In this document: in pieces, positions 2,379 through 30,181 of the stretch
Layout: each line of letters starts with the position of its first letter
Numbering within the stretch: the first letter of the stretch is position 1
Source: Clostridia bacterium
Lineage (GTDB): Bacteria; Bacillota; Clostridia; Oscillospirales; CAG-272
DNA length: 51,538 nucleotides
Assembly: GCA_017462545.1 (NCBI GenBank)
Contig: JAFTQX010000034.1
Coordinates: forward strand, 1-51,538
Direction: 5' to 3'
Program-made: the position numbers and the translations under genes
Notes under the pieces: model-generated
Told to the model about the DNA's origin: nothing
The model's input: only the letters and a program-made list of their open reading frames with translations
Databases searched by the model: none

Positions 2379-2418
2379 ATAAAATGTTTCTCCAATACAG
2401 AGAAAAGGAGGATATGTG

Positions 2419-4092: not shown

Positions 4093-4160
4093 CTGCTGGA
4101 GAAGAGTCCTATTTACCGTGAGGTATATGAATCGCAGACCAAAGCAGGAGGTGATGACTG

Positions 4161-14068: not shown

Positions 14069-15133
14069 GTGAAAAAAATGCTCTGCTGCTTGCTGGCACT
14101 GCTGCTGCTTTTGTCGTCTTTGGGGGGTATGACCGTGCTTGCCATCAGCGATGAGGATGCCGTGCAGGAGGAAGAGGCCCTTCCTGAGGTGGTCGGCACT
14201 CGTCTCAGTCTTACCGAAAATTTCTTGGTTCGCTTTTACTTCCGTCTGCCGGAGGGGGGACATTCTCCTTATGCCTATGTGGATGGTGTTATTCATGAGG
14301 CGCGGGAAACAGAGGAGCCGGGGCTTTATGAGGTGATCTATGAGGGGCTGGCCGTGGATGCCATGGTCAAGCAGGTGAAAATGATACCTGTATGCCGCGT
14401 GGAGGATAAAAACCTACAGGGGCTGCCCTATTATTTTTCTGTGCGGGATTATGCGATGCGCTTGCTGGTGCAGGATGATCTGATGCCCGAGCTGCGCCGC
14501 GTGCTGGTTGCGATGCTGAATTTTGGCGCGGCTGCGCAGCTTTACAACCAAGAGCAGGTATATAATCTGGCCAATGATTATCTTTCGGCTGAGGATAAGA
14601 TCGTTCCCACCCGCGAGTATAACTCCGTGCTGGCTGCGCACGGAAAGGCAACACAGTATTTTGCCACGATCACGCAAGCCTCTCTGGTTGTCAACGACAG
14701 TGCTTGCCTGAAGATTTATGTGAACCTGGAGGGGCAGGAGCAGCTACGTGTCAACGGCGGTACCGGTTTCCCCGAGTGGCAGCATCTTTCCAAGGATGCC
14801 GAAGCGGCCAGGTTGGCTAAGGATGTATGGGCCGAGGTAGCCGATAATCCCAATTTTGAAAATGCCTCCGTTTTTCCCTTGGAAAAGATCAAAACGATGG
14901 ATTGCTATCGTGTTGTTAGCTCCGGTATTTATGCCAATCGGTATAGCGATTCGTATTATATCCGCGTTTGTACACCGACCGGGGTCAGCCAGACTCTGCA
15001 GTACGGCGCAGAGACCTATGTGGCCAGAAATCTGAACGCCTCGGATATGACCGAGGAGGGACGTAAGATGGTTATTGCGATGATCGCGTACGGTGACGCG
15101 GTGCTTGCGTATGAACAGAAACAAGCCGCATAA
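14069..15133 (+). CDS. Secreted protein, 354 aa, stand-alone copy of the C-terminal module of the following family
   Basis: The start is GTG 14069, eight bases after GGGAGG. The signal peptide VKKMLCCLLALLLLLSSLGG... is cleaved near VLA-IS (about residue 27). No family name is recognised. The pattern LSLTENFLVRFYFRL ... YEGLAVDAMVKQVKMIPV ... FSVRDYAMRLL ... LVAMLNFGAAAQLYN ... LANDYL (about 50-170) matches the C-terminal part of the three large secreted proteins downstream (DITISEDLGFNFYV ... GISAKKMADLIYVRP ... FSVQKYADAAF ... LLTYGAQTQVLFG). The last third contains a second diverged half (CLKIYVNLE ... YYIRVCT ... TYVARNL). It has its own promoter and terminator. It may be a cell-surface or secreted binding module; no catalytic motif is seen. 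Confidence 0.82.
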   Translation: MKKMLCCLLALLLLLSSLGGMTVLAISDEDAVQEEEALPEVVGTRLSLTENFLVRFYFRLPEGGHSPYAYVDGVIHEARETEEPGLYEVIYEGLAVDAMVKQVKMIPVCRVEDKNLQGLPYYFSVRDYAMRLLVQDDLMPELRRVLVAMLNFGAAAQLYNQEQVYNLANDYLSAEDKIVPTREYNSVLAAHGKATQYFATITQASLVVNDSACLKIYVNLEGQEQLRVNGGTGFPEWQHLSKDAEAARLAKDVWAEVADNPNFENASVFPLEKIKTMDCYRVVSSGIYANRYSDSYYIRVCTPTGVSQTLQYGAETYVARNLNASDMTEEGRKMVIAMIAYGDAVLAYEQKQAA

Positions 15134-15250: not shown

Positions 15251-15279
15251 TTGACTTTTTTCGGTTCCTGTGTTACAAT
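15251..15279 (+). promoter_or_regulatory. Promoter of the first large secreted protein gene
   Basis: TTGACT, 17-bp spacer, TACAAT with a TG one base before it (extended -10). It has the same TTGACTT plus extended -10 layout as the promoters at 18259 and 21067. Confidence 0.8.
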
Positions 15280-15330: not shown

Positions 15331-18006
15331 ATGAAAAAGTTCCTTAGCTTTTTCCTCGTGCTTTGCATGCTCATCTCTGCCGTTCCGGCACTGCTGCTGC
15401 CTGTATTTGCTGAGGATACGGGAGACGATGAGGTAAAGGTACTGGCCGAGTACAGCTTCATCGAAGAATTCGCGCCCGGCATTACCTATACGGTCTCTGA
15501 AAATGAGAAGAACAACCCGATCGGAGGCACCCCCTTCGCGTCGAATGAGGAGTACCTTGAGTGGCTGCTCAGCGACGGTGTATTTGCCGTCGGTCAGGGC
15601 GATAGCAACTGGAAGGTTGGCGAATATGATGTCAAGACCGGTGTGCTTGACCTCTTCAGCCGTCTCGCCTTCGGTACCGGTGATACGGCCGATGGCCACG
15701 ATATGAACTGGGTCGTAACCGAATCGGTTTATGAAAGACTGGCTACCAATTATGTTGAGTCCGGCTCTCCCTCCGGCGGTTCCATTTGGAATGGTAACGG
15801 TATTTGGCACCTGCATGCAGGTAGCAATTGGAAGGCAGAAAACGGCATTATTGAGAAGGCCACTCCCTTGGCTCCCGGCCGTATCACCACCTCCGGCACC
15901 GGCTTCTATTCCGCTATTCAGTACACCGTTGCCGAAAAGGGCACTTACGGTGTGCAGCTTGGTGCTTTCTCTGAGTCTGCCACCAATGGTCACGTGCTTG
16001 CCATTATGGTAAACGGCGAGCCTGTATGGCCGCTTGGCGCACAGAAGACCAACTCCAGAACCTGGTATTCTACCGCAACCGCAACGCTGGATAAGATCAA
16101 CACCGCGCTGATCCCCCTTGCTATCAAGTTGAATGCAGGTGATAAGGTCTCCTTTGTTGTTGGTAACTCCGGTGACGCCGTTGTGATCGAGCCGATCATG
16201 CGCCGTCTGGAGGGTATGCCGATCTATGTATCCCTGTCGGATCCCAATGGTCCTAATACCGCTTCCTACAAGGTCGCTCCCAACTCTACCTTCGTTATCC
16301 CCACTTACCAGGGTGATAACATCTTCTTCGGTTGGGATTCCAATGGTGATGGTGCGGTTGATTACGGCGATGGCGCCGAGATCGCCGTAGGCGAGGACGG
16401 CATTACGCTGAACGCTGTGATCCTCGAGCCCTCCAAGTTCTATGACGAAAAGCCCTACTGGGATGAAACCGCACAGGAGGTTGTATTCCCCGGTGACTGG
16501 TCTCTCGGCGTATGGGATAAGACCACGGGTGAGTACCTGCCTGTTCAGTACCACAACAAGCCCTTCATTACTCCTGTACAGGGCGGTCCTTGGAACACCA
16601 CCGGCGGCGGTATGTATGATACCGAGCGTCCCGGCGTTATCGTTTCTACCGGCACCCTGGATTATGAGGGTGGCTACACCGGTGATAAGGAAGAGGGTAA
16701 CTACATTACTGCTATTCAGTACACCGCTGCTTATAACGGCACCGTTTCTCTGGATTTTGAGCAGTTTATCATCAAGCGTGAGCTGAACACCTCCGAGGCA
16801 AGCGAGCCCGCTCCGATTCAGGCCGGCTTTGCCGTTTATGTAGACGGCGAAAAGGTATGGCCTGAAGGCGAAAATGAATACTACTGGTTCTCCAGCGCCG
16901 ATGTTCTTGCAGAGTCGGAAAACGGCGGTATCTTTGATGGTCTGTCCGGTCAGTGCGACTTCTTGACTGAGATGACCAAGGCCGGTACTTGGCCCTTCCC
17001 GCTGCAGATCGAGGATGTTTCTCTTGGCTCTGTGATCGATATCCGTGCGGTACGCGGCAACCCCTACAACTGGGGCTTCTATCTTCGTCCTACTGCTACC
17101 TTTACCGCACTGGACGAGACGCCTACCGTTTCTCACACCTCTGTTGATATCGCAGAGGACTTCACCCTGAATATTTACGCCAATGTTCTTGGTATTGAGG
17201 AAGGCTCCGGTGTTGGCATGGAGTACTGGACCAGCAATCCGTCCGCGGCTGCGCTGATGAACGGCGGTAAGAAGCTGGAGCTGATTGCCGAGGAGAATGG
17301 TCTTTACAAGTTTGCTTATGCCGGCCTGACCGCAAAGCAGATGACCGATACCATCTATGTGCGCGCTTACACCACCGATAAGGAAACCGGTGAAGAGAAG
17401 GCATACGGTACGGTTGAGGCTGTCAGCATTCAGCAGTATGCAATGGCCGCTATGGGTCAGAATGCAACGCTGGATAACCTGCTGATCGCTATGCTGAACT
17501 ACGGCTCTGAGGCACAGACGCTCTTTGGTTATAAGACCGACAATCGTGCAAATGCTCTTCTTGATAAGGATCAGAGAGCACAAAGCGCCGATGTAAGCGC
17601 GCTGGTTGATTCCTACAGCCAGTCCGGTGAGGACAACAAGATCAAGTATGTCAGCCTGCTGCTGGGTACCGATATCGGTATGAAGTACGTCATTGATGTC
17701 GTAGAGGGCGCAGAGACCTACGAGCTTGAGTATTCCAAGAATGCAGACTTCACCGATTCCACCAAGATCCCCATGACCCTCACGAAGGAAGGTCTGGAGA
17801 TGAAGGCGATCTACAACATCTCCTTCAGCGAGCTGCAGGATGTCTTCTACGTTCGTGTGATCATTGATGGTGAAGAAGGCGCAACGCTGACCTACAGTGT
17901 AGAGTCTTACGTTCTTCGTATCAGCGATGAGTGCAGCGACGGCATGTATAATGCTGCTATGGCTCTGGCTTATCTTGGTCAAGCACTTGAGGCATACAAG
18001 GCTTAA
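15331..18006 (+). CDS. Large secreted protein, family member 1 (891 aa)
   Basis: ATG 15331 follows TTAGGAAGGA and begins a clear signal peptide (MKKFLSFFLVLCMLISAVPA... cleaved near VFA-ED). Layout seen: an N-terminal beta-rich region with repeated ISTSGTGFYSAIQYT/AAYNGT blocks; a DSNGDGAVD loop (about 338-346) resembling a calcium-binding dockerin/EF-hand loop; a second copy of the beta block (SLGVWDKTTGEYLPV ... GGPWNTTGGGMYD, about 390-430); and a C-terminal module from about 605 to the end (FTLNIYANVLGIEEG ... MLNYGSEAQTLFGY ... ESYVLRISDE). There is no sortase motif, membrane anchor or catalytic signature, so it is likely released or bound non-covalently. A 46-aa peptide gene follows 17 bases later. 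Function unknown. Confidence 0.85.
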   Translation: MKKFLSFFLVLCMLISAVPALLLPVFAEDTGDDEVKVLAEYSFIEEFAPGITYTVSENEKNNPIGGTPFASNEEYLEWLLSDGVFAVGQGDSNWKVGEYDVKTGVLDLFSRLAFGTGDTADGHDMNWVVTESVYERLATNYVESGSPSGGSIWNGNGIWHLHAGSNWKAENGIIEKATPLAPGRITTSGTGFYSAIQYTVAEKGTYGVQLGAFSESATNGHVLAIMVNGEPVWPLGAQKTNSRTWYSTATATLDKINTALIPLAIKLNAGDKVSFVVGNSGDAVVIEPIMRRLEGMPIYVSLSDPNGPNTASYKVAPNSTFVIPTYQGDNIFFGWDSNGDGAVDYGDGAEIAVGEDGITLNAVILEPSKFYDEKPYWDETAQEVVFPGDWSLGVWDKTTGEYLPVQYHNKPFITPVQGGPWNTTGGGMYDTERPGVIVSTGTLDYEGGYTGDKEEGNYITAIQYTAAYNGTVSLDFEQFIIKRELNTSEASEPAPIQAGFAVYVDGEKVWPEGENEYYWFSSADVLAESENGGIFDGLSGQCDFLTEMTKAGTWPFPLQIEDVSLGSVIDIRAVRGNPYNWGFYLRPTATFTALDETPTVSHTSVDIAEDFTLNIYANVLGIEEGSGVGMEYWTSNPSAAALMNGGKKLELIAEENGLYKFAYAGLTAKQMTDTIYVRAYTTDKETGEEKAYGTVEAVSIQQYAMAAMGQNATLDNLLIAMLNYGSEAQTLFGYKTDNRANALLDKDQRAQSADVSALVDSYSQSGEDNKIKYVSLLLGTDIGMKYVIDVVEGAETYELEYSKNADFTDSTKIPMTLTKEGLEMKAIYNISFSELQDVFYVRVIIDGEEGATLTYSVESYVLRISDECSDGMYNAAMALAYLGQALEAYKA

Positions 18007-18023
18007 GAAAGGGGTATAACAAC

Positions 18024-18164
18024 ATGAAAAAGTATGAAAGACCCGAATGGGCTATGGCCGCATTCGATATGATGGATGTTTTGATGGCATCCGATGAAAA
18101 CGAGACGGATAAGGACTATGTAGACAACGAGAGCATCGTTGTAGAAAACATCGCTAATATCTGA
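18024..18164 (+). CDS. 46-aa peptide, copy 1 of a paralogous pair
   Basis: A short ORF with a good start: GAAAGGGG at 18006-18013 is 10 bases before ATG 18024. The product begins MKKYERPEWAMAAFD and contains DVLMASDENETDK at 18-30, then YVDNESIVVENIANI. It has no signal peptide and no membrane segment and is strongly acidic in its C-terminal half. A second gene at 23686 encodes a peptide of identical length with all of residues 18-30 conserved, and its codons there are almost the same. It is cotranscribed with the large secreted protein and followed by a strong terminator. The MKxYExP...DVLxxS layout resembles unnamed short proteins common in gut Clostridia (recall, not checked); a precursor peptide or small adaptor is possible. 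Confidence 0.78.
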   Translation: MKKYERPEWAMAAFDMMDVLMASDENETDKDYVDNESIVVENIANI

Positions 18165-18171
18165 ACTCCCA

Positions 18172-18203
18172 AGAGAGCCAAGCGGCATGCCGCTTGGCTC
18201 TCT
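18172..18203 (+). terminator. Terminator of the first secreted-protein/peptide operon
   Basis: A 32-bp perfect palindrome (AGAGAGCCAAGCGGCA and its complement), ending in TTTTTT. Confidence 0.92.
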
Positions 18204-18214
18204 TTTTTCCTGTA

Positions 18215-18287
18215 CAAGTTGAACAAATCAGAGTGCCGATTTCTGTTGAAAATGCGACTTGACTTTTTCCCCGAAAGATGATATGCT
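18215..18287 (+). promoter_or_regulatory. Promoter and conserved upstream element of family member 2
   Basis: The core promoter is TTGACT 18259-18264, 17-bp spacer, TATGCT 18282-18287 with an upstream TG. The bases before it (TGTACAAGTTGAACAAA near 18213-18229 and AAAATGCGACTTGACTT near 18250-18265) recur almost unchanged upstream of family member 3 at 21019-21073. Either a duplicated promoter or a shared regulator site explains this. Confidence 0.7.
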
Positions 18288-18326
18288 ATGACTGGTATAT
18301 AACATTTTTTTAAAAGGAGAAAACTC

Positions 18327-20822
18327 ATGAAAAAACGCATTTTCAGCTTGTTTCTTGCTTGCGTGATGCTCCTTTCCGCAGTGCCGGTGCTCTTTCTTGT
18401 CAGCGGCGCAGAGGAAGGGGAGGTCTCGTTTACCTCGTCCTTCTGGGAGGAGGCACAGGCCGGCAAGATCACCTATGATGCCGAGGCAGGCACCGTTACC
18501 TATGGTGGCGCTTGGCAGGCCGCCTTCTACATGCAAAGCGGCACTACCTACACCCCTGTTCCGCTTTCCCACCTCGATCCTACCATGCGATACGGCAATG
18601 TGGCGGTTACCGAGCCGTGCCACAGTTCCTTGCTGGAGCATCCCACTTGGGATCTTTTCTACTGGGGCTCTCCGAATGGTTCGGATGCTATGAGATTGAA
18701 TGATTATGCCATCGTTTTTGGTAATGAAAACTGCATCCCGCTATACTTGTATACCGTAACAGAAGAGGGCGAGTTTGACATCTCTGTTGAGATCGAAAAC
18801 TTCATCACACCGGAGGCCGGTCGTGAATACTTCTTCTCCATCATGGTCAACGAGCAGATGATCTGGCCCGTTTACGGCGCATCCTTCGCCTATACCAGCG
18901 CTCGCGATTTGTTTACAGATGAAGAGGGGGCGTGGTATCATGTAACAAGCGAAACAACGGCAGAGACCTTGAACGAGGCACTGCAGACGCTGCGCATGAC
19001 CGCCGGTAAGGGTGACCGTATTGAATTCTGCTACCGCTATGGTGCTGCATCTTATTCAAAGGATCCCTTCGCCTCCGCTATGCCGAAGATCACGGCAAAG
19101 CCTGCCAGCGGTGAAAAGATCCACTATGCCATTGTGCAGCAGGATGGCAAGATCACAAGTGCAAAGCCGATTGAAAACAATCTCTTCGTTTTCCCCGAAT
19201 ATACCGGTGAGGCGACCTTTATCGGTTGGGACATCAATGGCGATGGCATGGTTGATGCCTTCCCCGGCGCGACGCTTGATGTGTCCGGTTATTCAAACGA
19301 GGTGCTGACGGTTACCTCTATTTCAGTAGGTATTTCCCGTTGGTTTGATAATTTCCCCGTCATCGATGATGTTGGCATTCCCACCTATGTAGGCGGTTGG
19401 CAGACTGGTGCTTTTAACAAGAGTGAGGGTCTCTTCTATCCTTATGGCGGTGCCAGAGACAAGTTCGGCATCCACAGCATCAACGATTCTCCTTGGGGCG
19501 GCACCGGTGGTGGCCTATATTGTGTTGGCAGCCGCGGTCAGGTTGCGCTTTCCGGCTGTACGGCTGAGGGGGATTTCCTTGGCGAGATTAACTATACCGC
19601 CGGCTATAACGGTATCATCGAATTTGGTCTTGACCAGATGATTTTGGAGCGCGAGGGCGGTTCAGGCGAGGATTACATTGCTTATGATTTCGCCGTTTAC
19701 AAAAATGGCGAGAAAATCTGGCCTGCTGATAGCGAGTGGTTCCATGCCTCAAGTGCGGAGACCAATTCTACCGGATCCGGCACATATGACGCGTTGGCTG
19801 ATTTCTATGCAGCAGGCTTCCCGCTCACCATTGAGGTGGAGAAGGATGATGTGATCGCACTTCGTACGCAGCAGAGCAACAGCATTACCTGGATGCTGCA
19901 TCCGAAGCCTACGGTAACCTATACCACACTTTCTGAAACACCCATGGCAGCGAAGGCAGATATTACAATTTCCGAGGATCTTGGCTTTAATTTCTATGTT
20001 TGCGTGGTTAACGCGCGTGAGGACGTAGAGGTAGGCTTGGAGTATTGGACGTCTAAGCCGAATGAAACCCTGCTGATGAGAGGCGGCACCCCGCTGGATG
20101 GCACATATGACGACAAAACCGGCTTCTATAAGTTCACCTATGACGGCATTTCTGCCAAGAAGATGGCTGACCTGATTTATGTTCGTCCGTACTCCTATGT
20201 AGGCGAAGATATCATTTACGGCGCTGTAGCTGAATTCAGCGTGCAGAAATATGCAGATGCTGCCTTTGGCCAGTCGGATACCTTGGATAAGCTGCTTGGT
20301 GCGTTGCTGACCTACGGTGCCCAGACACAGGTGCTCTTTGGCTATAACAACGCAACCGAAAAGCTGGCTAATACAAATGTGCCCGTTGCGCTTCGTCCCA
20401 GCACCTTTAATGACAATCTGAACAATGTATACGCGCAGGGTGAAGGGGAAAATCCCATTACCGGTGCCAGCCTGCTGTTGAACAATCGCCTGGGCTTTAA
20501 GTTCGTGGTTGAGGATGTAGAGGGGGCGGAGAGCTATGTGCTTGAATATGCCGAGTCGGCCGATTTTGCCGATTCGAAAACGGTGGATATGGTTGCCACC
20601 AAGACCGAGGCACAGCATAAGGCATCCTTCGATATCAGCTTTGCCGAGCTTGGCAAGACCTTCTATGTGCGTGCTGTCATCGACGGTGAGGCCGGTGCCA
20701 CGCTGACCTACAGCTTTGAGAGCTATTTTGATCGTGTCCAGGATGATTGCGATTTTGGTCTTTACTATGCGCTTTCTGCACTGGCAACCTATGAGCGCGC
20801 ATTGGCGGAGTATCTCGGGTAA
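18327..20822 (+). CDS. Large secreted protein, family member 2 (831 aa)
   Basis: A signal peptide (MKKRIFSLFLACVMLLSAVP... cleaved near SGA-EE) opens the protein; RBS AAAAGGAGA. It shares its whole layout with member 3 (21145), including VSFTSSFWEEAQAGKITYD, the repeated GGAWQAAFYMQSG/GGWQTGAFNKSEG blocks (about 50 and 355), the DINGDGMVD loop (about 308-316), GEDYIAYDFAVYKNGEKIWP, and the C-terminal module from about 545 (LGFNFYVCVVNARED ... YWTSKPNETLL ... LLTYGAQTQVLFGYN ... FKFVVEDVEGAESYVLEYA ... SYFDRVQDDC). There is no anchor or catalytic motif. Instead of an intact 46-aa peptide gene, a decayed copy follows. Confidence 0.85.
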   Translation: MKKRIFSLFLACVMLLSAVPVLFLVSGAEEGEVSFTSSFWEEAQAGKITYDAEAGTVTYGGAWQAAFYMQSGTTYTPVPLSHLDPTMRYGNVAVTEPCHSSLLEHPTWDLFYWGSPNGSDAMRLNDYAIVFGNENCIPLYLYTVTEEGEFDISVEIENFITPEAGREYFFSIMVNEQMIWPVYGASFAYTSARDLFTDEEGAWYHVTSETTAETLNEALQTLRMTAGKGDRIEFCYRYGAASYSKDPFASAMPKITAKPASGEKIHYAIVQQDGKITSAKPIENNLFVFPEYTGEATFIGWDINGDGMVDAFPGATLDVSGYSNEVLTVTSISVGISRWFDNFPVIDDVGIPTYVGGWQTGAFNKSEGLFYPYGGARDKFGIHSINDSPWGGTGGGLYCVGSRGQVALSGCTAEGDFLGEINYTAGYNGIIEFGLDQMILEREGGSGEDYIAYDFAVYKNGEKIWPADSEWFHASSAETNSTGSGTYDALADFYAAGFPLTIEVEKDDVIALRTQQSNSITWMLHPKPTVTYTTLSETPMAAKADITISEDLGFNFYVCVVNAREDVEVGLEYWTSKPNETLLMRGGTPLDGTYDDKTGFYKFTYDGISAKKMADLIYVRPYSYVGEDIIYGAVAEFSVQKYADAAFGQSDTLDKLLGALLTYGAQTQVLFGYNNATEKLANTNVPVALRPSTFNDNLNNVYAQGEGENPITGASLLLNNRLGFKFVVEDVEGAESYVLEYAESADFADSKTVDMVATKTEAQHKASFDISFAELGKTFYVRAVIDGEAGATLTYSFESYFDRVQDDCDFGLYYALSALATYERALAEYLG

Positions 20823-20885
20823 GAAGGGATCATCCCCCCCTAGAATCATAGGAAAGAGCCGAATGGGCAAGCTTTGATCACTATA
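20823..20885 (+). pseudogene. Decayed copy of the 46-aa peptide gene
   Basis: After the stop of family member 2 the sequence still starts TAAGAAGGG, like the other two operons. Bases 20851-20868 (GGAAAGAGCCGAATGGGC) match 16 of 18 bases of copy 1 at 18034-18051, which encode ERPEWA. The start codon is replaced by CTAGAATCAT, and similarity fades after 20885, before the conserved DVLMASDENETDK segment. The part left is therefore non-coding. Confidence 0.65.
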
Positions 20886-20912
20886 TTAAAACCGTTCGGC
20901 AACAACCAAATG

Positions 20913-20943
20913 CGCCACCGCAAGCAATTTGCTTGCGGTGGCG
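20913..20943 (+). terminator. Terminator after family member 2
   Basis: CGCCACCGCAAGC, five-base loop, GCTTGCGGTGGCG, then six T. A second GC-rich hairpin without a T run lies at 20989-21007. Confidence 0.9.
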
Positions 20944-21018
20944 TTTTTTGCATTTACAAACCTGACAGTAGAGAGACTCGCTCCAAAGCCACCGGCACGG
21001 CCGGTGGTCGTGTCTTCT

Positions 21019-21095
21019 TGTACAAATTGAACAAAAGCGGCAGAAAAAAACTGTCCAAAATGCGACTTGACTTCTAAAAGAAAAAATGGTATTCT
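21019..21095 (+). promoter_or_regulatory. Promoter and conserved upstream element of family member 3
   Basis: TTGACT 21067-21072, 17-bp spacer, TATTCT 21090-21095 preceded by TGG (extended -10). The upstream sequence repeats that of family member 2: TTGTACAAATTGAACAAA, then AAAATGCGACTTGACTT. Confidence 0.7.
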
Positions 21096-21144
21096 ATTGT
21101 CGAGGGATACTTCCCTGCAACGATTTTTTAGAAGGAGTACATTC

Positions 21145-23667
21145 ATGAAAACACGCATTTTCAGCTTGATCCTTGCTTGTATCATGCTTCTGTCCGTTGT
21201 GCCGGCTCTGTTTTTGGTAGCAGGCGCAGAGGGGGAGGCTGAGGTTGCATTTACCTCGTCTTTCTATGAAGAGGCACAGGCAGGCAAAATCACCTATGAC
21301 GCCGAGGCACAGACCGTTGCCTATGGCGGCGCATGGCAGGCAGCCATTTTGGCTCCCGGCAACTATGCTCCCATCATTCTTGATCGAATGAACCCCCGTA
21401 TGGAGGGTGACGATGCCGAGGGATATTGGGCAATCACGCCTACTGCTAATGAGGGCATCAACGCGAACGGCTGGTCGCAGTGGTGGTGGGGCTCTCTTCC
21501 CGGCGCGGGACTTATGAACCTGGAGACCTATACCATTGGTTTTTCTAACCCGCAGGGCATTTCTACCTATGTGTATACGGTGACGGAGGAGGGCGAATTT
21601 GACATCTCGATGGAGATTGACAATTTTGTTGCTCCTGTTGATGAGAATAACCAGTTCTTTATGTCCATTATGGTCAACGAGAAGATGGTATGGCCGTCCT
21701 ATGGCGGTACCTATCGTTATGCTATTACTCCGGATAGCTCCGGTAATGTGGCGCAAACCATATTTCAAGGAGACGGCAACTGGTATAAGGTAACCCCCGA
21801 AACAACGATAGAGACCTTGAATGAGGCACTTTCTTCTCTTTCTGCAAGAGTAAAGGAAGGCGATCGTATTGAGGTTTGCTACCGTTTGGCTCCGTATACC
21901 ACCTATGTGCATGCCGAGGCGACCGCTATGCCTAAGATCACGGGTACGGTTGCTACCGGTGAGCGCGCGATACAGTACCTTGCCATTTGCGAAAACGGTG
22001 AGGTGCTCAGCACCAGCAAGATCGAGGGTGGCGCTGTTGTGCTGCCGGAATACACCGGCACACAGCTGTTCCGTGGCTGGGATGTCAACGGCGACGGTGT
22101 CGCTGACATTCGCGCAGGCGCGACGCTGGATGCAACAACCTTTGATGCGGATATCATTTACGCGAATGCTGTAACGGTTGGTACCACAAAATGGGCTGAT
22201 CATATTCCCACGTTGGATGCCAACAACATGCCGATCTTTACCGGCAACTGGCAGACCGGTGTGTTTGATACCTCCACCGGCACATTTGCTTTGTTTGGTG
22301 CCGAGGCAGATGCTTACCGTATTATTACAACAAGTGGCTCTGTATGGGGTGGTGCAGGCGGTGGTCTTTATGTGGATAATGGTAAGATTGCTTTCTCCGG
22401 TTGCACGGCAGAGGACAGTTTTATGAACGAGATCAACTATACCGCCGAATACAGTGGTAATGTCCAGTTTGATTTGGATAAGCTGGTTCTGCGCCGCGAG
22501 GGGGCAAAGGCAGAGGACTATATTTCCTTCAACTTTGCTGTATATGTGAATGACGAGAAGGTTTGGCCTGCGGATGCTGATATGTTCAACATCACCAGCC
22601 CCAATATGTATAGCGATGCTACCTGCGACTATGATGGCCTGGCTGATATCAAGGCCGGCGGCTTCCCGCTTTCGATGACGCTGGAGAAGGGCGATGTTGT
22701 TTCTCTGCGTACCCAGCTGGGGAACGCCAACAACTGGATGGCGTATATTCATCCTACCGTTACCTATCAGACATTGAATGAAACGCCCCTTGCCGTGAGT
22801 GCTGACGTGACGATTGGCACTGACCTTGGTCTCAACTTCTATGTAGAGATCGTGGCTCCTCGTGAGGGCGTACAGGCCGGTCTTGAGTACTGGACCAACA
22901 AGCCGAGCTCTGCACAGATCCTGCGCGGCGGCACGCCGCTTGAGGGCATCTATGATGAGACCACCGGCTTCTACAAGTTCACCTATGGGGACCTGTCTGC
23001 CAAGGAGATGACAAAGCTGATCTACGTCCGCCCCTACTCATATGTGGGTGAGGAGGATATCATCTATGGAGATATCGTTCCCTTCAGCATTCAGATGTAT
23101 GCTGACAAGGCGTTCGGTCGCTCTGCCAAGCTGGATAAGGTGCTGGCTACCATGCTTACCTACGGTGGCAATGCCCAGTCCAACTTTGGTTACGGCATGC
23201 AAAACATGGCCAATGCCAACGTTCCTGCTGATCTGCGTCCCGGCATTTTTAACGGTCTGCTGAATGACGTATATGCACAGGGCGAGGGCGAAAATCCCAT
23301 TACCGGTGCTAGCCTGTTGCTGGACAATCAGCTCGGCTTTAAGTTCACCATCGGCAATATCGAAGGGGCAGAGAAGTATGTTCTCGAGTTTGCCGATAAT
23401 CCTGAATTTACCGATGCTGTCACGGTCGATATGGTTACCACAAAGGAAGGCTTGGAGCAGAAGGCTTCTGTATTTGTTAACCTCAGCGAGCTGGATAAGA
23501 CCTACTATGTTCGCGTTGTAGTAGACGAGGTTCCCGGCGCAACGCTGACCTACAGCATGGAGTCCTATGTTGCTCGCATCAGCAATACCGATTGCTCGGA
23601 GGGGATGTATCAGGTTCTGATTTCTCTTGTGCAGTTCAGCCGCGCAATTGAAGAGTACCTGGCATAA
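21145..23667 (+). CDS. Large secreted protein, family member 3 (840 aa)
   Basis: ATG 21145 follows AGAAGGAG and opens a signal peptide (MKTRIFSLILACIMLLSVVP... cleaved near AGA-EG). It is the close paralogue of member 2: AEVAFTSSFYEEAQAGKITY, GGAWQAAILAPGN, an extra Trp-rich insert (NGWSQWWWGS, about 115-124), the DVNGDGVAD loop (about 315-323), TGNWQTGVFDTSTGTF, EDYISFNFAVYVNDEKVWP, and the C-terminal module from about 565 (LGLNFYVEIVAPREG ... MLTYGGNAQSNFGYG ... FKFTIGNIEGAEKYVLEFA ... SYVARISN). Synonymous divergence from member 2 is substantial, so the duplication is not very recent. A 46-aa peptide gene follows 18 bases later in the same operon. Function unknown. Confidence 0.85.
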   Translation: MKTRIFSLILACIMLLSVVPALFLVAGAEGEAEVAFTSSFYEEAQAGKITYDAEAQTVAYGGAWQAAILAPGNYAPIILDRMNPRMEGDDAEGYWAITPTANEGINANGWSQWWWGSLPGAGLMNLETYTIGFSNPQGISTYVYTVTEEGEFDISMEIDNFVAPVDENNQFFMSIMVNEKMVWPSYGGTYRYAITPDSSGNVAQTIFQGDGNWYKVTPETTIETLNEALSSLSARVKEGDRIEVCYRLAPYTTYVHAEATAMPKITGTVATGERAIQYLAICENGEVLSTSKIEGGAVVLPEYTGTQLFRGWDVNGDGVADIRAGATLDATTFDADIIYANAVTVGTTKWADHIPTLDANNMPIFTGNWQTGVFDTSTGTFALFGAEADAYRIITTSGSVWGGAGGGLYVDNGKIAFSGCTAEDSFMNEINYTAEYSGNVQFDLDKLVLRREGAKAEDYISFNFAVYVNDEKVWPADADMFNITSPNMYSDATCDYDGLADIKAGGFPLSMTLEKGDVVSLRTQLGNANNWMAYIHPTVTYQTLNETPLAVSADVTIGTDLGLNFYVEIVAPREGVQAGLEYWTNKPSSAQILRGGTPLEGIYDETTGFYKFTYGDLSAKEMTKLIYVRPYSYVGEEDIIYGDIVPFSIQMYADKAFGRSAKLDKVLATMLTYGGNAQSNFGYGMQNMANANVPADLRPGIFNGLLNDVYAQGEGENPITGASLLLDNQLGFKFTIGNIEGAEKYVLEFADNPEFTDAVTVDMVTTKEGLEQKASVFVNLSELDKTYYVRVVVDEVPGATLTYSMESYVARISNTDCSEGMYQVLISLVQFSRAIEEYLA

Positions 23668-23685
23668 GAAAGGAGTATATCCGGT

Positions 23686-23826
23686 ATGAAGCCTTATGAA
23701 AGACCCGTTTGGGCGATCGTTTCGTTTGAGCGATGCGATGTTTTGATGGCATCGGATGAAAACGAGACGGATAAGGAGTATGTAGATGGCAACGAGCTCG
23801 TTGTCAACAACATCAACAGTATCTAA
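23686..23826 (+). CDS. 46-aa peptide, copy 2 of a paralogous pair
   Basis: It starts at ATG 23686 behind AAAGGAG. The peptide begins MKPYERPVWAIVSFERC and shares DVLMASDENETDK (18-30) exactly with copy 1. Bases coding for that core differ at only one position, while codons 8-17 have diverged strongly. The one Cys (position 17) is not conserved. It has no signal peptide. Its position directly after family member 3, with a terminator just behind, repeats the arrangement of the first operon. This makes a functional link between peptide and secreted protein likely, but the role is unknown. Confidence 0.78.
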   Translation: MKPYERPVWAIVSFERCDVLMASDENETDKEYVDGNELVVNNINSI

Positions 23827-23833
23827 CGAAAAG

Positions 23834-23854
23834 CCCCGCTGCATAGCAGCGGGG
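23834..23854 (+). terminator. Terminator of the third secreted-protein operon
   Basis: CCCCGCTGC, three-base loop, GCAGCGGGG, then TTCTTTTG. Confidence 0.88.
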
Positions 23855-23931
23855 TTCTTTTGTTCGGAATGTGCGGGAAATAAATTTACATTTTTTGTCG
23901 ATATTTTTCCGTCTTTTCTCTTGTTCGGTTG

Positions 23932-23960: not shown

Positions 23961-24094
23961 TTATCATGTAATATGAAGACGCTTGACGAAGGAAAAAAGA
24001 TCGTGTCCGCAGGCTCTTTGCAGCTTGTGTGGTTGCCCGGAGGGGGCGCCTCGGATTTTCTTTTGTCAGCGAATGATGAGAGAGGATGTATAAG

Positions 24095-27000
24095 ATGAAA
24101 AAACAATGTAAGCGCTTTTTGTTTCCTGTTCTGCTGACCTTGGCGATGGTGCTTGTTGCCATCCCCTTTTTCGTGCAGGCGGCGGCTGTTGAGCCCTATC
24201 ACAGCACGCATGATACCCCTTGGGAAGCAACAAGCGGCATCATTTCCGGCGGTGAGGGCTGCAATTATTATTTAACGGGTGATTTGACCGCAACGGCAGA
24301 CATTGTTGTGGTGGGCAAGGTCAATTTGTGCTTGAATGGCCACACGTTGAATATGGGTGAAAGCAGTATCCGTCCCGGGGCGGGGGCTGAGATCAATATT
24401 TGTGATTGCTCTGCTGAGGGAAAAGGAACCATTATTTCGGACGAGATTGCCATTTACGCGGATTCCTATCATGGATATAATGGCGATGTGACTGTTTATA
24501 GCGGCAATATCACGGGCAGAACGGCCATTTCCAACAAAGGAACGGGTACTATTTCTGTTTTGGGAGGCTCTTTGCAGGGTGTTCAGTACGGCATTGATAA
24601 CATCACCGGCACTACGGTTGTTTCGGCCGGTACTGTATCGGCTGTGCGTGAGGCCGCTATTCAAAATACAGGCACCTTGATTGTAAACGGCGGTACGGTA
24701 CATAGTGAGAAGGGATTGGCCGTAAAGGTTATTAGCGGCGGCAGCTTTTCTCTTTCCGGTGCGCCCGCTGTCTATGGTGGTGTAGATGTGACCGGGCAAA
24801 CGATGGACGATATCGAGCTGCCTGTCTCTACGAAAATTGCGATTACTGCTCCGCTGACATACGGCAAGGAGAACAAGCTCTCCGTGTACGTTTCCAATGC
24901 GACCTATCCCTGCACCTTTACCTCCGGTTGGCAGGTGAATATGGGTGAGGCTGCCTTTGATGATTATTTTGAAGGATCTCGCTTATATGTTGACAAATAT
25001 AAGCTCCGTAAGGGGGCGGATGGCGAGCTGCAGTTTACCGAGCACATGCACTCTTGGACCTATGAGGTGCAAGACAATGTGCTGACAGCGCGCTGCACGC
25101 GCGAGGACGGCCTTGCATGCCCGCTTGTCGATTGCTTTGGCGGTACGTTGACCGTGAATGCGCCTGCCGATCTTGTATATAATATGCAGGAAAAAACGGC
25201 GACTATGGAAAACACGCTGATCGGCGGTGTGCCGGCGATCCTTTCCGAGATCACCTATGAAAAGAACAACGGTGAGGGGTGGGAATCTTCCTCCACGCCT
25301 GTGGCCGTTGGCGAGTATCGGGCGATTTTGACGATCGATGCGGGCTTGACAAGCGAGACCCGCGTCATGGTTGCCTTTGCGATTGCGTATTTGGATACCG
25401 CAGATACGGCCGAGATTTCTTGTGATGCAGGAAACGGCTTGGTTGGCGGTGTTACCTGGTATAAGGGGGATGTTACGCTGCAAGCGCCTGTCGGCTACAC
25501 CATCAGCGCGCTTGGCACAGAGTATGTCGATGCAATTACCGTGAGCGGCGATCGGGAAGGGGACTATCCCTATTACCTGAAGGACAGCGAGGGGTATATT
25601 GCCAAGAAGACGGTCTCGATCTGCATTGATACGCAGGGACCCCTGATCTCTTCTACCAGCACGGGTGTTCCCGGCACATCGACCTTTACCGTTGCTGTCA
25701 GCGCTACAGATCCTCGCGGCGTTGCGGAATACCGCATGACCTATTGGAAGAGCGCAACCCCGGCAAGTGTGACGACGATTTCCTCGCAAAACGGCTCGTT
25801 CTATCTGACGGGCTTGGATGTATACACCGCATACAGCTATAGCATTGTAGCGGTGGACAAGCTTGGCAATGTGTCGGAAGAAAAGATTGGTGATTTCCAG
25901 ACTGCCAAGCCGAGCATTGAGGGCGCGACGATTTTGATCGGCGGCAGTTATGTTTATAACGGAACGGAGATCCTTCCCGCCGATGTGACGGTCATGCTCG
26001 GTGGTCAGGTGATTGATGCCGGCCAGTACCTTGTGTCGGTGTATGATAATGTTCATGCCGGCACGGCTACCCTGATCGTGACCGCGAAGGAGGGCAGCAG
26101 CTATTCCGGCTCGGTCAGCACAAAATTTGAGATCGCTCCCTGCCCTTTGGCAGGCGCGAATGCCACCATTGATACGCCCTCGTTTTCCTACAACGGTATG
26201 GCGCAAGCTCCTACTCTGACTGTAACAGCAAACGGGGAAACGCTTGGTGAGGATGATTACACCATTCGCTATCTGCGCAACGGCATGGAAACGACCGATA
26301 TTACCTCGGCCGGTACGATTACCGTTTGCCTTGTCGGCAAAGGAAACTATACCGGTGAAAAGGAGATCGGCAATTATACCATTGCCCGCGTGGCATTGAT
26401 TATTCAAGCCAACATGCAGGCAGTTCGTCTTGGTGAGAGCATCGGCACGGGGCTTGATGCGGTTACCATAAACGGCTTGGTTGGTGGTGATGTGCTGGTA
26501 TCCATTACCATGGTACAGAGCACCCATCTGGTTCAATGCAGCAATGCTGTGCTGACCAATGCGGCAGGCGACGACGTTCTTTCCAACTATGTGATCGAAT
26601 ATCGAGCAGGTCTGTGCCATACGTTAGAATGGGATCCGACTCACGGCAAGCTTTGCTGCACCGACGAGGAATGCGATTATAAGCAGGGCGAGGCTGATGT
26701 CGATGCTCCCACAGGCACATTGACCGTAACCGATGGTAGCTATAGCACTACCGTAAACGGCTTTTACAGCAGCATTCCCGAGAACTGGTTTACAAACAAG
26801 GAGCTGATGGTGACCATCACGGCACAGGACGCTCTTTCCGGTCTGGCCAAGGTGGAGTACCTTTGGGGCTATGATGCCGCCGTGCAGACCGAACAGCAAT
26901 TGGCTGCCCGCACCGATTGGTTGACCTGCCCGTCGGAGGGCTTTGCGATCGCGGTGAAGGATGGCGCAAGAGTTGTGGTTTATGCCCGCCTGACCGATAA

Positions 27001-30000
27001 AGCAGGAAACGTGACCTATCTCTCGTTTGACCGTGGTGTCGTGTTTGATACCACACCGCCCGAGATCGGCGGTGTGGAAAGCGGAAAGACCTATTACGTC
27101 ACACAGCAGATTACGATTGCTGATCTTTTCAGCGGTATTCAGCTAAGCGATCTTGTCAATTGCGGTTGGGAGCTTACCTCTGTGAACGGCAAGCTTCATG
27201 CGGTGCTGACGCTGGCAGGCGATACCGACTGTGTTTATCAGTTCCGCCTGTCGGATATGGTGGGCAATGCAGCTGCAAACGGAGAGCTCTTTGTCATCAC
27301 GATGAAGCCTATTTCGGCACTCTCGCAGCCCATTGATCATCTTACCATCGACAATGTCACAGGTTATGATGCCAAAATCCTGCGCGAGGTGCGCGATGCC
27401 GTTGTCAGCGTAGATACGACATTCGCTACCGATGGTGAAAAGGCAGCCTTGAAGGCCATTCTTGATAAATGTGATATGTTGCTTGCCAAGGTGCAAAATG
27501 TGGAGGAGGTCATCAAGCACGCCTCCGATCTGTTGGCAGGCTACGATATTGATACCGTTACCTCGGCAGACCGCGCGGTCATTGCCCAGGTTGCTGATGA
27601 TCTTGTTGCGACAGAGGCGGGCAATGATTTGACCGACGAGCAACGGGAGGCGCTGATTCCCCTGCAGGAGAAGGCCGCGGCCTTGCTTGGAAGAATTGAT
27701 GAAACCGCTGCCGAGCTGACACGCATAAAGAACATAGCAAATGGGTACGATCCGGATACGGTTACGCTGGACGATAGAGCAGTCCTGAATGCGCTCTTGT
27801 CGGATATCGATGCCTTGTTGGTGGGTAAAAATCTGACCACCACCGAGCGCGCAGAGCTGATCGCCCTGCGCGGGGGCATCACCCTGATGCTCGATCAGCT
27901 GGTGGATGTTGCAGCCGAGATCGCGCGTTTGGCCGCTGCGCTTGCGCAATACCATGAGGATACCGTCAAATCGTCTGACAAAGCTGCGATTGATGAAATT
28001 CTCTTGGCCATTGACGAGCTGCTTGGTAGCCGCGGGGTGACCGAAGGGGAAAAAGCGGAACTGACCGCACTTCGCTCACAGGCGGTTGCTCTGTTGAATA
28101 AGATCGCCGCTGTTGCAGCCGAGATCGATCGTCTTACGCAAGCGACTGCTTCTTATGATATTGATACGGTCACCACACGGGAATATTCTCCCTTGCAGAA
28201 ACTGTCGCTGGATTTTTCAGAGATTCTTGATGGTCAAAACTTGACAGAGACAGAGCGGAATGCGCTGCTCACCTCGCGCAATGTGATCAGTGCTTGCCTT
28301 GTGCGGTTGGATAGTATAGAGGCAGAAAGAAAGCGGGTCAACGCGCTCTACGCAAGCTATGAAACGGCCAATCTGAAGGAATCGGATCGTGCAAGTATTC
28401 TACGCTTGATTGATTCGATTGATGTATTGCTCTCCTATACCAACCACACAGAGGAGGAGCGTGCCGCGTTGGAGGCACTTCGTGTGTCGACTGTGGCATT
28501 GCTGGATAAAATCGGTCAGACCGATGATGATAATGCGCTGCTTGATCAGCTGTATGCGTATAAGACCGAGAGCGTGAAATCCTCGGATAAGCAGGCGATT
28601 TCCGACATGTTGGCAGAGATCCATGCTCTGTGCGAGGATACCGGTCTGACTGATGAACAGCGCACCGATCTTGAAAACGGTGCAAAGTATGCCAATGCGT
28701 TGCTTAATAAAATTGCTGCTACGCTGGCAGAGCTGGATCGCGTGACAAAGGCTGTGGCGGGGTATGATGCCGCTACCGTTACCTCTGCCGATCGCGATGC
28801 CATTGCGTTGCTGATTGCTAACATGCAGACGCTTTTGAACGGCGACAATCTGACCGCAGACGAAAGAGGCGCGCTGAATGAATCGTTGCAAAATGCGAAT
28901 GCGTTGCTTGCCGAGATTGATCAGAACCTGACCGAGCTGGATCGCCTGCATACCGCTATTGGCGCGTATGATGTGGATACGGTGGCCTCTGCCGATCGTG
29001 CTGCCATTGAGCAGTTGATTGCTGATATCAATGCGTTGCTTGACGGTAGCAATCTGACGGATGACGAGCGTGCTACGCTGGCAGAGGATCTCGCTACGGC
29101 CAACGCGCTGCTTGCCGAGATTGAAAAGGATGAAAATGCCGGCTCGGAGGATCCCGAAAAGCCGGAAGACCCTGTTGATCCGATAGATCCGCTGGAGGAG
29201 CTTTCGCGTCTGCTTGCCGCTGTGAACGGCTATGATATTGAAACCGTCAAGTCCACCGATCGTGCGGATATTGAAACGCTGATTGCGGATATGGACAAGC
29301 TTGCCCAAAGTACCGGCTTGAGCGACACGGATCGTGCAAGTCTCGCCGAGGGAAGAGAAAAGGCAGATGCCCTGCTTGCTCGTATTGAGGCGGCAGCACA
29401 GGCACCGATCACCGAGAATACGCAGGCGGCAGCGGGCATCACCGCCGAAAACTTTGCGCTTGCCGATCGTCAAACGCTGAAGGCCGCCAAGGCGGATATT
29501 GAAAAGGCACTTGCCGATTATGATGGCAACTATACCGATGCTGAAAAGCAGGCGTTGCGCGACGAGATGGCGCGCCTGGATGCCGTGATGCACGCGATGG
29601 ATCGTGTAGAGGCGGTGCAGGAGGCTTTGGATTCGTTGCCCGAGGCAGAGAACTTTAACCGCAACGATATTACCGTCAAAGAGCTGATCGAAGCGATTGA
29701 GAAGGCGTATGCCCAGCTGACTGAGCGCGAATTGGAGCTGGTAGACAGAAGCCGCTTGGATGCAATTCTTGCTATCCTTGCCGATTACGATATCGTGGTT
29801 GGTAATGGCAACAGCTGGCAGAAGGGCTCGAATTTCTCGCTCTCCTTCCAGGCAAACGGCCCGTATGAGGAGTTTGTGGGTGTGAAGATCGATGGCGTCT
29901 TGCTTGATGCGTCGAATTATCTAGTCTTGAATCGCGATACCGCTGTCAACCTGCTGCCCGCCTATTTGGAAACCTTGGCGACAGGTGAGCACACGATCAC

Positions 30001-30181
30001 GATCCTGTATGTCGATGATGAAGCCGCAGGCACCTTCCGCATTACCGAAGCGGTTGCCGGTAATGAGGGGAACAACTACCTTTGGATCATCATTGTGATT
30101 ATTATTCTATGTCTTGCCGGCGGTGCTGTTGCTGTCTACTTCGTGATGAAGAAAGAACGCAAGCCCGGCAAGAAATCCTAA
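24095..30181 (+). CDS. Giant membrane-anchored surface protein with tandem helical repeats (2028 aa)
   Basis: ATG 24095 is preferred over 24086 because AGAGAGGA then has a normal eight-base spacing. Layout: signal peptide (about 1-28); a beta-helix-like region (about 30-240) with NYYLTGDLTATADIVV and short Gly-rich turns; Ig/MBG-like beta domains (about 245-780), including YTGEKEIGNYTIARV and SSYSGSVSTKFEIAP; another Ig-like pair (about 870-1080) with FDTTPPEIGG; nine 68-residue helical repeats (1149-1769) with the pattern YDxDTVxSxDRxxIxxLxxxIxxLL...NLTxxERxxL...ALLxxI; further diverged repeats; and a C-terminal beta domain. It ends in a membrane helix (LWIIIVIIILCLAGGAVAVYF) with a basic tail. 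There is no LPXTG. It is likely an adhesin or structural surface protein. Confidence 0.88.
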   Translation: MKKQCKRFLFPVLLTLAMVLVAIPFFVQAAAVEPYHSTHDTPWEATSGIISGGEGCNYYLTGDLTATADIVVVGKVNLCLNGHTLNMGESSIRPGAGAEINICDCSAEGKGTIISDEIAIYADSYHGYNGDVTVYSGNITGRTAISNKGTGTISVLGGSLQGVQYGIDNITGTTVVSAGTVSAVREAAIQNTGTLIVNGGTVHSEKGLAVKVISGGSFSLSGAPAVYGGVDVTGQTMDDIELPVSTKIAITAPLTYGKENKLSVYVSNATYPCTFTSGWQVNMGEAAFDDYFEGSRLYVDKYKLRKGADGELQFTEHMHSWTYEVQDNVLTARCTREDGLACPLVDCFGGTLTVNAPADLVYNMQEKTATMENTLIGGVPAILSEITYEKNNGEGWESSSTPVAVGEYRAILTIDAGLTSETRVMVAFAIAYLDTADTAEISCDAGNGLVGGVTWYKGDVTLQAPVGYTISALGTEYVDAITVSGDREGDYPYYLKDSEGYIAKKTVSICIDTQGPLISSTSTGVPGTSTFTVAVSATDPRGVAEYRMTYWKSATPASVTTISSQNGSFYLTGLDVYTAYSYSIVAVDKLGNVSEEKIGDFQTAKPSIEGATILIGGSYVYNGTEILPADVTVMLGGQVIDAGQYLVSVYDNVHAGTATLIVTAKEGSSYSGSVSTKFEIAPCPLAGANATIDTPSFSYNGMAQAPTLTVTANGETLGEDDYTIRYLRNGMETTDITSAGTITVCLVGKGNYTGEKEIGNYTIARVALIIQANMQAVRLGESIGTGLDAVTINGLVGGDVLVSITMVQSTHLVQCSNAVLTNAAGDDVLSNYVIEYRAGLCHTLEWDPTHGKLCCTDEECDYKQGEADVDAPTGTLTVTDGSYSTTVNGFYSSIPENWFTNKELMVTITAQDALSGLAKVEYLWGYDAAVQTEQQLAARTDWLTCPSEGFAIAVKDGARVVVYARLTDKAGNVTYLSFDRGVVFDTTPPEIGGVESGKTYYVTQQITIADLFSGIQLSDLVNCGWELTSVNGKLHAVLTLAGDTDCVYQFRLSDMVGNAAANGELFVITMKPISALSQPIDHLTIDNVTGYDAKILREVRDAVVSVDTTFATDGEKAALKAILDKCDMLLAKVQNVEEVIKHASDLLAGYDIDTVTSADRAVIAQVADDLVATEAGNDLTDEQREALIPLQEKAAALLGRIDETAAELTRIKNIANGYDPDTVTLDDRAVLNALLSDIDALLVGKNLTTTERAELIALRGGITLMLDQLVDVAAEIARLAAALAQYHEDTVKSSDKAAIDEILLAIDELLGSRGVTEGEKAELTALRSQAVALLNKIAAVAAEIDRLTQATASYDIDTVTTREYSPLQKLSLDFSEILDGQNLTETERNALLTSRNVISACLVRLDSIEAERKRVNALYASYETANLKESDRASILRLIDSIDVLLSYTNHTEEERAALEALRVSTVALLDKIGQTDDDNALLDQLYAYKTESVKSSDKQAISDMLAEIHALCEDTGLTDEQRTDLENGAKYANALLNKIAATLAELDRVTKAVAGYDAATVTSADRDAIALLIANMQTLLNGDNLTADERGALNESLQNANALLAEIDQNLTELDRLHTAIGAYDVDTVASADRAAIEQLIADINALLDGSNLTDDERATLAEDLATANALLAEIEKDENAGSEDPEKPEDPVDPIDPLEELSRLLAAVNGYDIETVKSTDRADIETLIADMDKLAQSTGLSDTDRASLAEGREKADALLARIEAAAQAPITENTQAAAGITAENFALADRQTLKAAKADIEKALADYDGNYTDAEKQALRDEMARLDAVMHAMDRVEAVQEALDSLPEAENFNRNDITVKELIEAIEKAYAQLTERELELVDRSRLDAILAILADYDIVVGNGNSWQKGSNFSLSFQANGPYEEFVGVKIDGVLLDASNYLVLNRDTAVNLLPAYLETLATGEHTITILYVDDEAAGTFRITEAVAGNEGNNYLWIIIVIIILCLAGGAVAVYFVMKKERKPGKKS
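27539..29401 (+). repeat. Nine tandem ~68-codon repeats inside the giant surface protein
   Basis: Units begin near Y[DEHK]xxTV at regular 68-residue steps, with the consensus SxDRxxIxxL...L...NLTxxER...ALLxxI. Unit 8 carries a 20-residue acidic, Pro-rich insert (SEDPEKPEDPVDPIDP). Repeats differ at many residues, so they are old, apart from units 7 and 8, which are noticeably closer to each other. Confidence 0.85.

Follow-up and report, generated by a model that had tools for sequence, protein, structure and literature searches.

An array of exported-protein and peptide genes

The window analysed here, a stretch of 51,538 nucleotides from a Clostridia bacterium (Oscillospirales, CAG-272; assembly GCA_017462545.1, contig JAFTQX010000034.1), carries on its forward strand an array of three units in which genes for large exported proteins are accompanied by genes for peptides of 46 amino acids (aa). 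The exported proteins, referred to here as A (891 aa, 15331..18006), B (831 aa, 18327..20822) and C (840 aa, 21145..23667), each have a signal peptide by reading of the open reading frames (ORFs), and C appears beta-rich in a low-confidence structural model; its 840 aa are counted from the ATG at 21145, the mechanical ORF beginning earlier, at 21067. A preliminary description of this DNA had reported three paralogous signal-peptide proteins of 831-891 aa in a row, with no membrane anchor, and both observations hold: the coordinates are as described, identities over the aligned parts are 52% (B-C), 36% (A-B) and 35% (A-C), and no anchor is visible in any of the three.

Peptide 1 (18024..18164, forward strand) begins 17 bp behind A and peptide 2 (23686..23826, forward strand) 18 bp behind C, and the two are 65% identical. 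Peptide 1 shows a leader motif (Y4, P7) of the type bound by RiPP recognition elements (RREs; RiPP, ribosomally synthesized and post-translationally modified peptide), followed by D18, a conserved Ser23, which from its sequence we predict to be the modified residue, and an acidic tail; peptide 2 belongs to the same family. The decayed third copy that had been described behind B was also found, as a remnant of about 21 nucleotides without an open frame (20848..20868, forward strand, borders set by eye) which by our reading aligns with codons 4-10 of peptide 1. Its Smith-Waterman score is 30 against peptide 1, reached by 0/500 shuffles, and 20 against peptide 2, reached by 15/500. No Pfam or NCBIfam model scored above its cut-off with A, B, C or the peptides.

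Each unit had been credited with its own promoter and terminator. Promoter-like sites, recognised by consensus match alone and all fitting TTGACT-17-TA(C/T)N(A/C)T, do lie on the forward strand at all three units (TTGACT-17-TACAAT at 15251..15279, TTGACT-17-TATGCT at 18259..18287 and TTGACT-17-TATTCT at 21067..21095), and terminator-like hairpins follow on the same strand 3' of peptide 1 (18171..18204), of unit 2 (20912..20944) and of peptide 2 (23832..23856). Terminator-like sites are in clear excess across the region (20 versus a shuffle mean of 8.2), whereas promoter-like sites are not (13 versus 10.3).

The peptide family in the same genome and in a related genome

In what follows G designates a genome (G000 being the one that carries the window), C a contig of G000 and L a locus that was read. 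The G000 assembly comprises 2.0 Mb and is 81% complete. Searching it with a profile of the two window peptides, and then with a profile of 15 members from the same genome, yielded a family of 18 peptides. Thirteen of these start between -4 and +20 bp past the stop codon of a large ORF (approximately 490 to 2045 aa), offsets being taken from the ATG nearest the motif; for the partners on C67 and C54 the gene start falls outside the stretch read, and a signal peptide is therefore not visible. Three others (C25, C37, C76) directly precede an exported-protein gene, one lies as a second copy some 200 bp past another peptide, and one (C65:31491) is alone. The partner gene of the preceding-type peptide on C76 is interrupted (L024, 9991-12200; two ORFs), either as a pseudogene or through an assembly error. 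The lone member on C65 (L022, 9992-10165) encodes 57 aa with a long Gly/Asp-rich tail, on the strand opposite to another peptide-protein pair of that contig.

The possibility that the peptide occurs mostly without the exported protein, raised in the preliminary description, is thus not borne out in this genome, where 16/18 members lie beside a large or exported protein, although the association is looser in the wider family (see below). In a test on sampled G000 loci, an ORF of at least 450 aa lies upstream of 9/16 family members versus 26/674 other intergenic small ORFs (odds ratio 32, p 7e-9), the misses including members of the preceding type and members whose partners were dropped by the simple gene picker.

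A 38-aa sister peptide is present in this genome in eight copies, all with the tail DENELAIDKLSSIFD[FL] nearly unchanged. Among these copies the ratio of nonsynonymous to synonymous differences (pN/pS) comes to 0.23 for the whole peptide and 0.046 for residues 23-38, which shows a coding frame kept by purifying selection at the protein level; for peptide 1 versus peptide 2 alone the ratio is 0.56. A short ORF right before a terminator-like hairpin might be a regulatory leader peptide or a chance frame in a 3' untranslated region, but the constraint on the tail of the eight copies and the conservation of the family through the order make this reading hardly credible.

The related genome G028 has 13 peptide matches. 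Four of these form a tandem array in which both the proteins and the peptides are of the type found in the window. Three of the four peptides have whole partner genes, whose products share 47-57% identity with whichever of A, B and C is nearest; the partner gene of the fourth runs off the end of the contig. The 46-aa type is thus paired with proteins of the A/B/C type in two species, whereas the 38-aa type is paired with several domain arrangements.

Distribution of the family across the order

An alignment model of 37 members (E<=0.01) matched 78/295 genomes of the order, the window's own genome included; homologous ORFs in related strains, on which the preliminary description had made its idea depend, therefore exist well beyond the G028 array. 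When one top match was read in each of 29 genomes, 16 began -8 to +38 bp past an ORF no shorter than 200 aa, and three more (L102, L105, L122) stood at most about 40 bp before a protein that looks exported; the match in L106 was left unplaced, and in L106 and L052 the peptide lies near a contig end. Among eleven loci of G304, 8/10 peptides follow an exported-protein gene. Across the 183 loci read with the 37-member model, an ORF of at least 250 aa lies just upstream of 51/98 peptides. A PDB search with the peptide profile gave nothing meaningful (best E 1.2), and the literature searched, consisting mostly of the openings of abstracts, contains no report of such peptides paired with exported proteins, which is not proof of absence.

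Leader motif and co-occurrence with an RRE

Nearly all family members carry the pattern Y-x-x-P...D-x4-S. In the 37 aligned members Y4 and D18 are invariant, while P7 and S23 are conserved in at least 90%. The motif [Y/W]xxPx[L/V/I/A/F/Y] is described as the leader motif bound by the discrete RREs of lasso peptides and of linear polyphosphorylated peptides (LPPs; Popov et al. 2026, PMC13381572; statements on that work rest on the part of its text available to us). Given this resemblance, we tested for an RRE, which has the PqqD fold. PF05402 (PqqD) matched 127/295 genomes of the order at E<=1e-5. With the window's own genome excluded, it was found in 71/77 peptide-positive versus 55/217 peptide-negative genomes (p 5e-26, uncorrected for kinship). 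Counted by genus the figures are 51/51 peptide-positive versus 30/97 others, and inside the family to which the genome belongs they are 14/15 versus 7/14 (p 0.013).

G000 itself yielded one PqqD protein, of 88 aa, on contig C64 (PF05402, E 7e-18, over the cut-off). In LppB, the RRE of the LPP system, N33, Y60, D70 and F74 hold the leader Tyr and Pro, Y60 and F74 forming the pocket walls (PMC13381572). These align with N35, Y62, D72 and F76 of the G000 protein, so that the residues of a Tyr-selecting pocket are kept; the N, Y, D and F are conserved in 15, 16, 15 and 14, respectively, of 18 aligned RREs. In pairwise PDB matches of this RRE, TbiB1 came first (E 0.002), followed by PbaB1 (0.15) and LppB (0.2).

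Downstream of the leader, Ser occupies the D+5 position in 47/49 and Thr the D+3 position in 32/49 distinct parsed members from the order and genus loci, and Ser is found at D+5 in 21/21 members of the G000 and G028 set (4/53 and 1/22 hits, respectively, were unparsed or duplicates).

Modification enzymes in the same genome

On C64 the RRE gene is preceded, 4 bp upstream, by a gene for a 238-aa P-loop kinase whose nearest relatives are ScmC and HprK-related kinases (ScmC, E 1.5e-6; HprK_rel_A, E 5e-4) and in which the invariant residues of the kinase alignment are present. A PDB search with the kinase profile returned one weak match, phosphoenolpyruvate carboxykinase (E 0.062). A relative of archaeal-type signal peptidases (SpI) stands at an orphan locus on C55 (E 6e-29 to the SpI alignment); all three scanned members of that alignment (3/3) match sigpep_I_arch below its cut-off, and 12/12 sequences agree in the residues that take the places of the catalytic Ser, His and Asp. 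Finally, C54 encodes an NTP_transf_5 protein (E 7e-47, over the cut-off).

The RRE gene is followed, in G000 (L090, 9298-9870) as in G028 (L091, 10126-10704), by a gene for a membrane protein of 190-192 aa, which occupies the place that the signal peptidase has in several relatives; the G000 protein has no Pfam or NCBIfam match.

Enzyme clusters and one-locus forms in relatives

In several relatives the kinase, RRE and peptidase genes are adjacent, and some of these clusters add an MsbA-like ABC transporter and NTP_transf_5. Three one-locus forms unite these five genes with an exported protein and a peptide. In G104 (L131) an exported protein of 1677 aa is followed after 13 bp by a 35-aa peptide, an SLH protein, and then kinase, RRE, SpI, ABC transporter and NTP_transf_5. 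The one-contig genome G043 (L099) has exported proteins of 1355 and 1089 aa, a 32-aa peptide 13 bp further on and, some 450 bp past the peptide, the same five enzyme and transporter genes. The third form (L259, a metagenome-assembled genome of Ruminococcus sp.) consists of an exported protein of 1349 aa, a peptide, a lipoprotein, a second peptide whose stop codon overlaps the kinase start, and again RRE, SpI, ABC transporter and NTP_transf_5. A precursor gene also lies inside the enzyme cluster of L133. In Blautia schinkii (L216) peptide, kinase, RRE, SpI and NTP_transf_5 adjoin a Polysacc_synt_2 protein, comparable to a capsule-locus setting reported for Bacilli. One RRE-adjacent locus, L136, was dropped as it holds a different PqqD protein.

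A kinase scan of a collection of 84,980 species genomes gave at least 595 candidate stretches, at least 582 of them confirmed, and 80 were kept. At these 80 loci an RRE follows in 55, an SpI in 38, and a peptide lies within 6 kb in 17. In all, 23 peptides (E<0.01) were found in 19/80 loci, as against none in 222 kb of control stretches from G000 and none in codon-shuffled loci. Of the radical SAM, protease and transporter genes for which the preliminary description proposed to look near the peptides in other genomes, SpI and ABC transporter genes stand in L131, L099 and L259, and a radical SAM gene in L218 (see below).

The preliminary description had left three roles side by side for the peptide: partner, precursor or secretion cofactor. 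Of these, precursor is now well supported, because of the RRE-type leader motif, the co-occurrence with an RRE and the presence of some peptides beside an LPP-like RiPP operon, and the linkage to exported proteins is both real and general. A helper in the export of the large protein, that is, a cofactor or chaperone that stays unmodified in the cytoplasm and works apart from RiPP enzymes, would account for the tight spacing behind exported proteins, the lack of a signal peptide on the peptide and its conserved sequence. It would not lead one to expect an RRE in every peptide-positive genus, peptides beside kinase-RRE-SpI genes in part of the loci, a leader whose Y-x-x-P fits the RRE pocket, or a family about half of which has no large ORF just upstream, and we regard it as unlikely.

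Comparison with known systems

The preliminary description had found no system to name; that judgement has to be revised, as the enzymes are those known from LPP RiPPs. The LPP set consists of SpI, RRE, HprK-like kinase, NTP transferase and MsbA-like transporter. It has been demonstrated that the leader is bound, that Ser3 of the core is phosphorylated and that the SpI-like peptidase cuts after a Thr, the role of the peptides being stated as unknown (PMC13381572). As far as the available part of that report goes, the two systems share a discrete RRE, an HprK-like kinase, an archaeal-type SpI-like leader peptidase, an NTP transferase and, in the relatives L131, L099 and L259, an MsbA-like exporter, along with short precursors that have a Y-x-x-P leader, a conserved Ser (in the present family often after Thr) and a variable tail. 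They differ in that the precursors described here are many per genome, lie mostly outside the enzyme cluster and are paired with large exported proteins, a partner that the LPP description, in its available part, does not mention; the leader consensus also differs past Y-x-x-P, and the hosts are mainly gut Clostridia rather than Bacilli.

Phosphorylated lasso peptides of the paeninodin type likewise combine an RRE and an HprK-like kinase acting on a short precursor (PMC13381572). According to the same partial source they have a Trp motif, a B2 peptidase and a cyclase, unlike the Tyr motif and Tyr-type RRE residues found here. That the leader motif and RRE are of lasso type, with TbiB1 as the best PDB match, could suggest a lasso peptide system. 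SpI occupies the peptidase place, however, and the B2 model Transglut_core3 (PF13471) is not over its cut-off in G000 and borderline in 1/13 genomes (a cyclase was not searched for), and we consider a lasso system very improbable.

A third comparison is with radical SAM RiPP clusters of Faecalibacterium and relatives. In Faecalibacterium gallinarum (L218, strain JCM 17207) a kinase-RRE-SpI set is accompanied by Cys-rich precursors and a radical SAM enzyme, and in L218, L132, L135 and L238 precursors with Y-x-K-A-like leaders and Cys-rich cores lie between kinase-RRE-SpI and the radical SAM gene (Radical_SAM confirmed by Pfam for L218 only). With their leader YEKAxAEVIxFxNSDVITTSG these clusters share the leader ending and the kinase-RRE-SpI genes with the present family, but they differ in having Ala for Pro, Cys-rich cores and, immediately downstream of the precursor, a radical SAM gene, and no large exported protein was seen alongside.

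Partner proteins

The paired proteins are large, and those tested are beta-rich or have Ig-like modules. By crude rules, 20/22 proteins with a peptide behind them are unanchored versus 36/77 unpaired ones, the two anchored exceptions being doubtful lipobox calls; for all pairings of exported proteins of at least 350 aa the figures are 23/28 versus 36/77 (p 0.001). The presence of peptides or kinases had guided the choice of loci, several partners (A included) were lost by the simple gene picker, and some of the unpaired proteins counted as free are doubtful, so that a restriction of pairing mostly to unanchored exported proteins is suggestive only. At 24086-30181 the window also encodes an exported protein of 2031 aa that is anchored in the membrane at its C-terminus and has no peptide gene, which agrees with the notion of a peptide missing from anchored proteins.

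A single shared partner domain was considered as an explanation of the pairing. The C-terminal domain in question was found in 27/51 upstream partners (12/13 in the G000 set), and it is not the rule, since it occurs in 0/9 of the G304 set and matches an unpaired protein. The latter is a 354-aa exported protein at 14069-15133 of the window; A, B and C match it in their C-terminal region, and it has no peptide gene behind it. Nor could a function be taken from the fold of protein C, as the AlphaFold2 model (three-row alignment) has a mean pLDDT of 48 and Foldseek returned scattered, mostly Ig- or Fn3-like matches with query TM-scores near 0.1.

The peptides might be classical RiPPs, signals or antimicrobials, for which the neighbourhood of exported-protein genes is a mere place of landing or expression of gene copies. 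Precursors do also occur alone, beside enzymes or beside a radical SAM gene, and the patchy pattern of LPPs in Bacilli has been read as conflict-like in the available text of that report (PMC13381572). Against this, the spacing is alike across many genera, one peptide type recurs with one partner type in two species, and the one-locus forms begin with an exported protein. We consider this a possible but less probable account.

Proposed mechanism

The reading that we favour, and hold to be probable, is that the 46-aa genes encode LPP-like RiPP precursors which have multiplied and scattered, are served by enzymes in trans and are each co-produced with an exported protein that is usually unanchored. 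By analogy with the LPP work, the leader (Y-x-x-P...D) would dock on the one discrete RRE of the genome, the HprK-like kinase encoded beside it would phosphorylate the conserved Ser of D-[VIL]-[LI]-[MT]-x-S, and the separate archaeal-type signal peptidase would remove the leader at a site close to this Ser, so that a short acidic core would be set free and then exported. The precursor genes, 18 in this genome, have multiplied and scattered, with this small enzyme set presumably serving them all, and most are placed for co-production with a large, usually unanchored exported protein. What the sequences themselves show is the family, its linkage to large proteins, the purifying selection, the co-occurrence with an RRE, the loci in common and the kept pocket residues. 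Outside the cell the finished peptide may work with its partner protein, most likely by holding or organising it at the surface.

Several observations weigh against this reading. The modification of the peptides is a prediction from the LPP work and their contact with the exported proteins a conjecture, and the kinase and SpI models match below their curated cut-offs. The G000 enzymes lie at three separate loci, with neither an ABC exporter of this kind nor an SpI beside the RRE and no member of the peptide family on the RRE contig. Nearly half of the wider family does not follow a large ORF. Of the kept kinase loci, 63/80 lack a peptide within 6 kb; the motif used for ABC transporters picked one out in 1/80 and was too strict to find that of L259. 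PqqD also serves other pathways, as its presence in the 55 peptide-negative genomes may reflect, and it is missing at E<=1e-5 from 6/77 peptide-positive ones (G059, G079, G123, G139, G179, G266). The first, 15-member model gave any match at all (E<=0.1) in 14/35 genomes of the same genus, 13 of these weak, and 34/35 of the same genomes have a PqqD match at E<=0.1. As for the leader, Y-x-x-P is present in the window peptides, yet its last position, given as [LVIAFY] in the published motif, is taken by Trp; of the published LPP leader YxxPxVLxHQxIxFETxxS, YxxP and Ser are matched, HQ and FE are not. At the place of the cleavage-site Thr (D+3), 18/21 members of the G000 and G028 set have Met, so that the cleavage site may differ here.

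The system therefore seems best read as one that works like the LPP system, short of a proven member of it, since in G000 the precursors lie away from the enzyme genes, the leader agrees with the consensus only in part and the product is a predicted one. What the peptide does within the pair is a matter for conjecture. As the partners are large and mostly unanchored, and as the 38-aa type goes with several domain arrangements and the 46-aa type with A/B/C, our guess, a tentative one, is that the peptides perform one general task outside the cell, for example tethering or assembly, and are not ligands made each for one protein. A broader and equally speculative form of the idea is a genome-wide peptide tagging of the exported proteome, in which one RRE-kinase-peptidase set would serve up to 18 precursors and each modified peptide would act outside the cell as tether, ligand or assembly factor dedicated to the exported protein of its own unit. 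If true, such tagging would give unanchored surface proteins a new mode of handling and LPP-type RiPPs their first function.

The pairing with exported proteins in many genera of the order would be a first clue to what LPP-type peptides do, and their open role becomes a direct question: does the modified peptide bind or place its partner protein? Many unnamed exported proteins of gut Clostridia gain a possible common partner system. Moreover, RiPP precursors that are numerous and far from their enzymes would be missed by cluster-based genome mining.

Other observations

A lipoprotein-like gene follows a peptide gene in L259 (7366-7848), in L198 (after 7478) and in L139, L140 and L143, giving the order exported protein, peptide, lipoprotein. 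On a contig labelled Spirochaetales, outside Bacillota, kinase, RRE, SpI, ABC transporter and NTP_transf_5 genes lie in a row (L242, 7983-12487), with two peptide genes on the other strand. In the window itself, two MsbA-like half ABC transporters are encoded at 2416-6116, about 9 kb upstream of the array, and are candidate peptide exporters at most.

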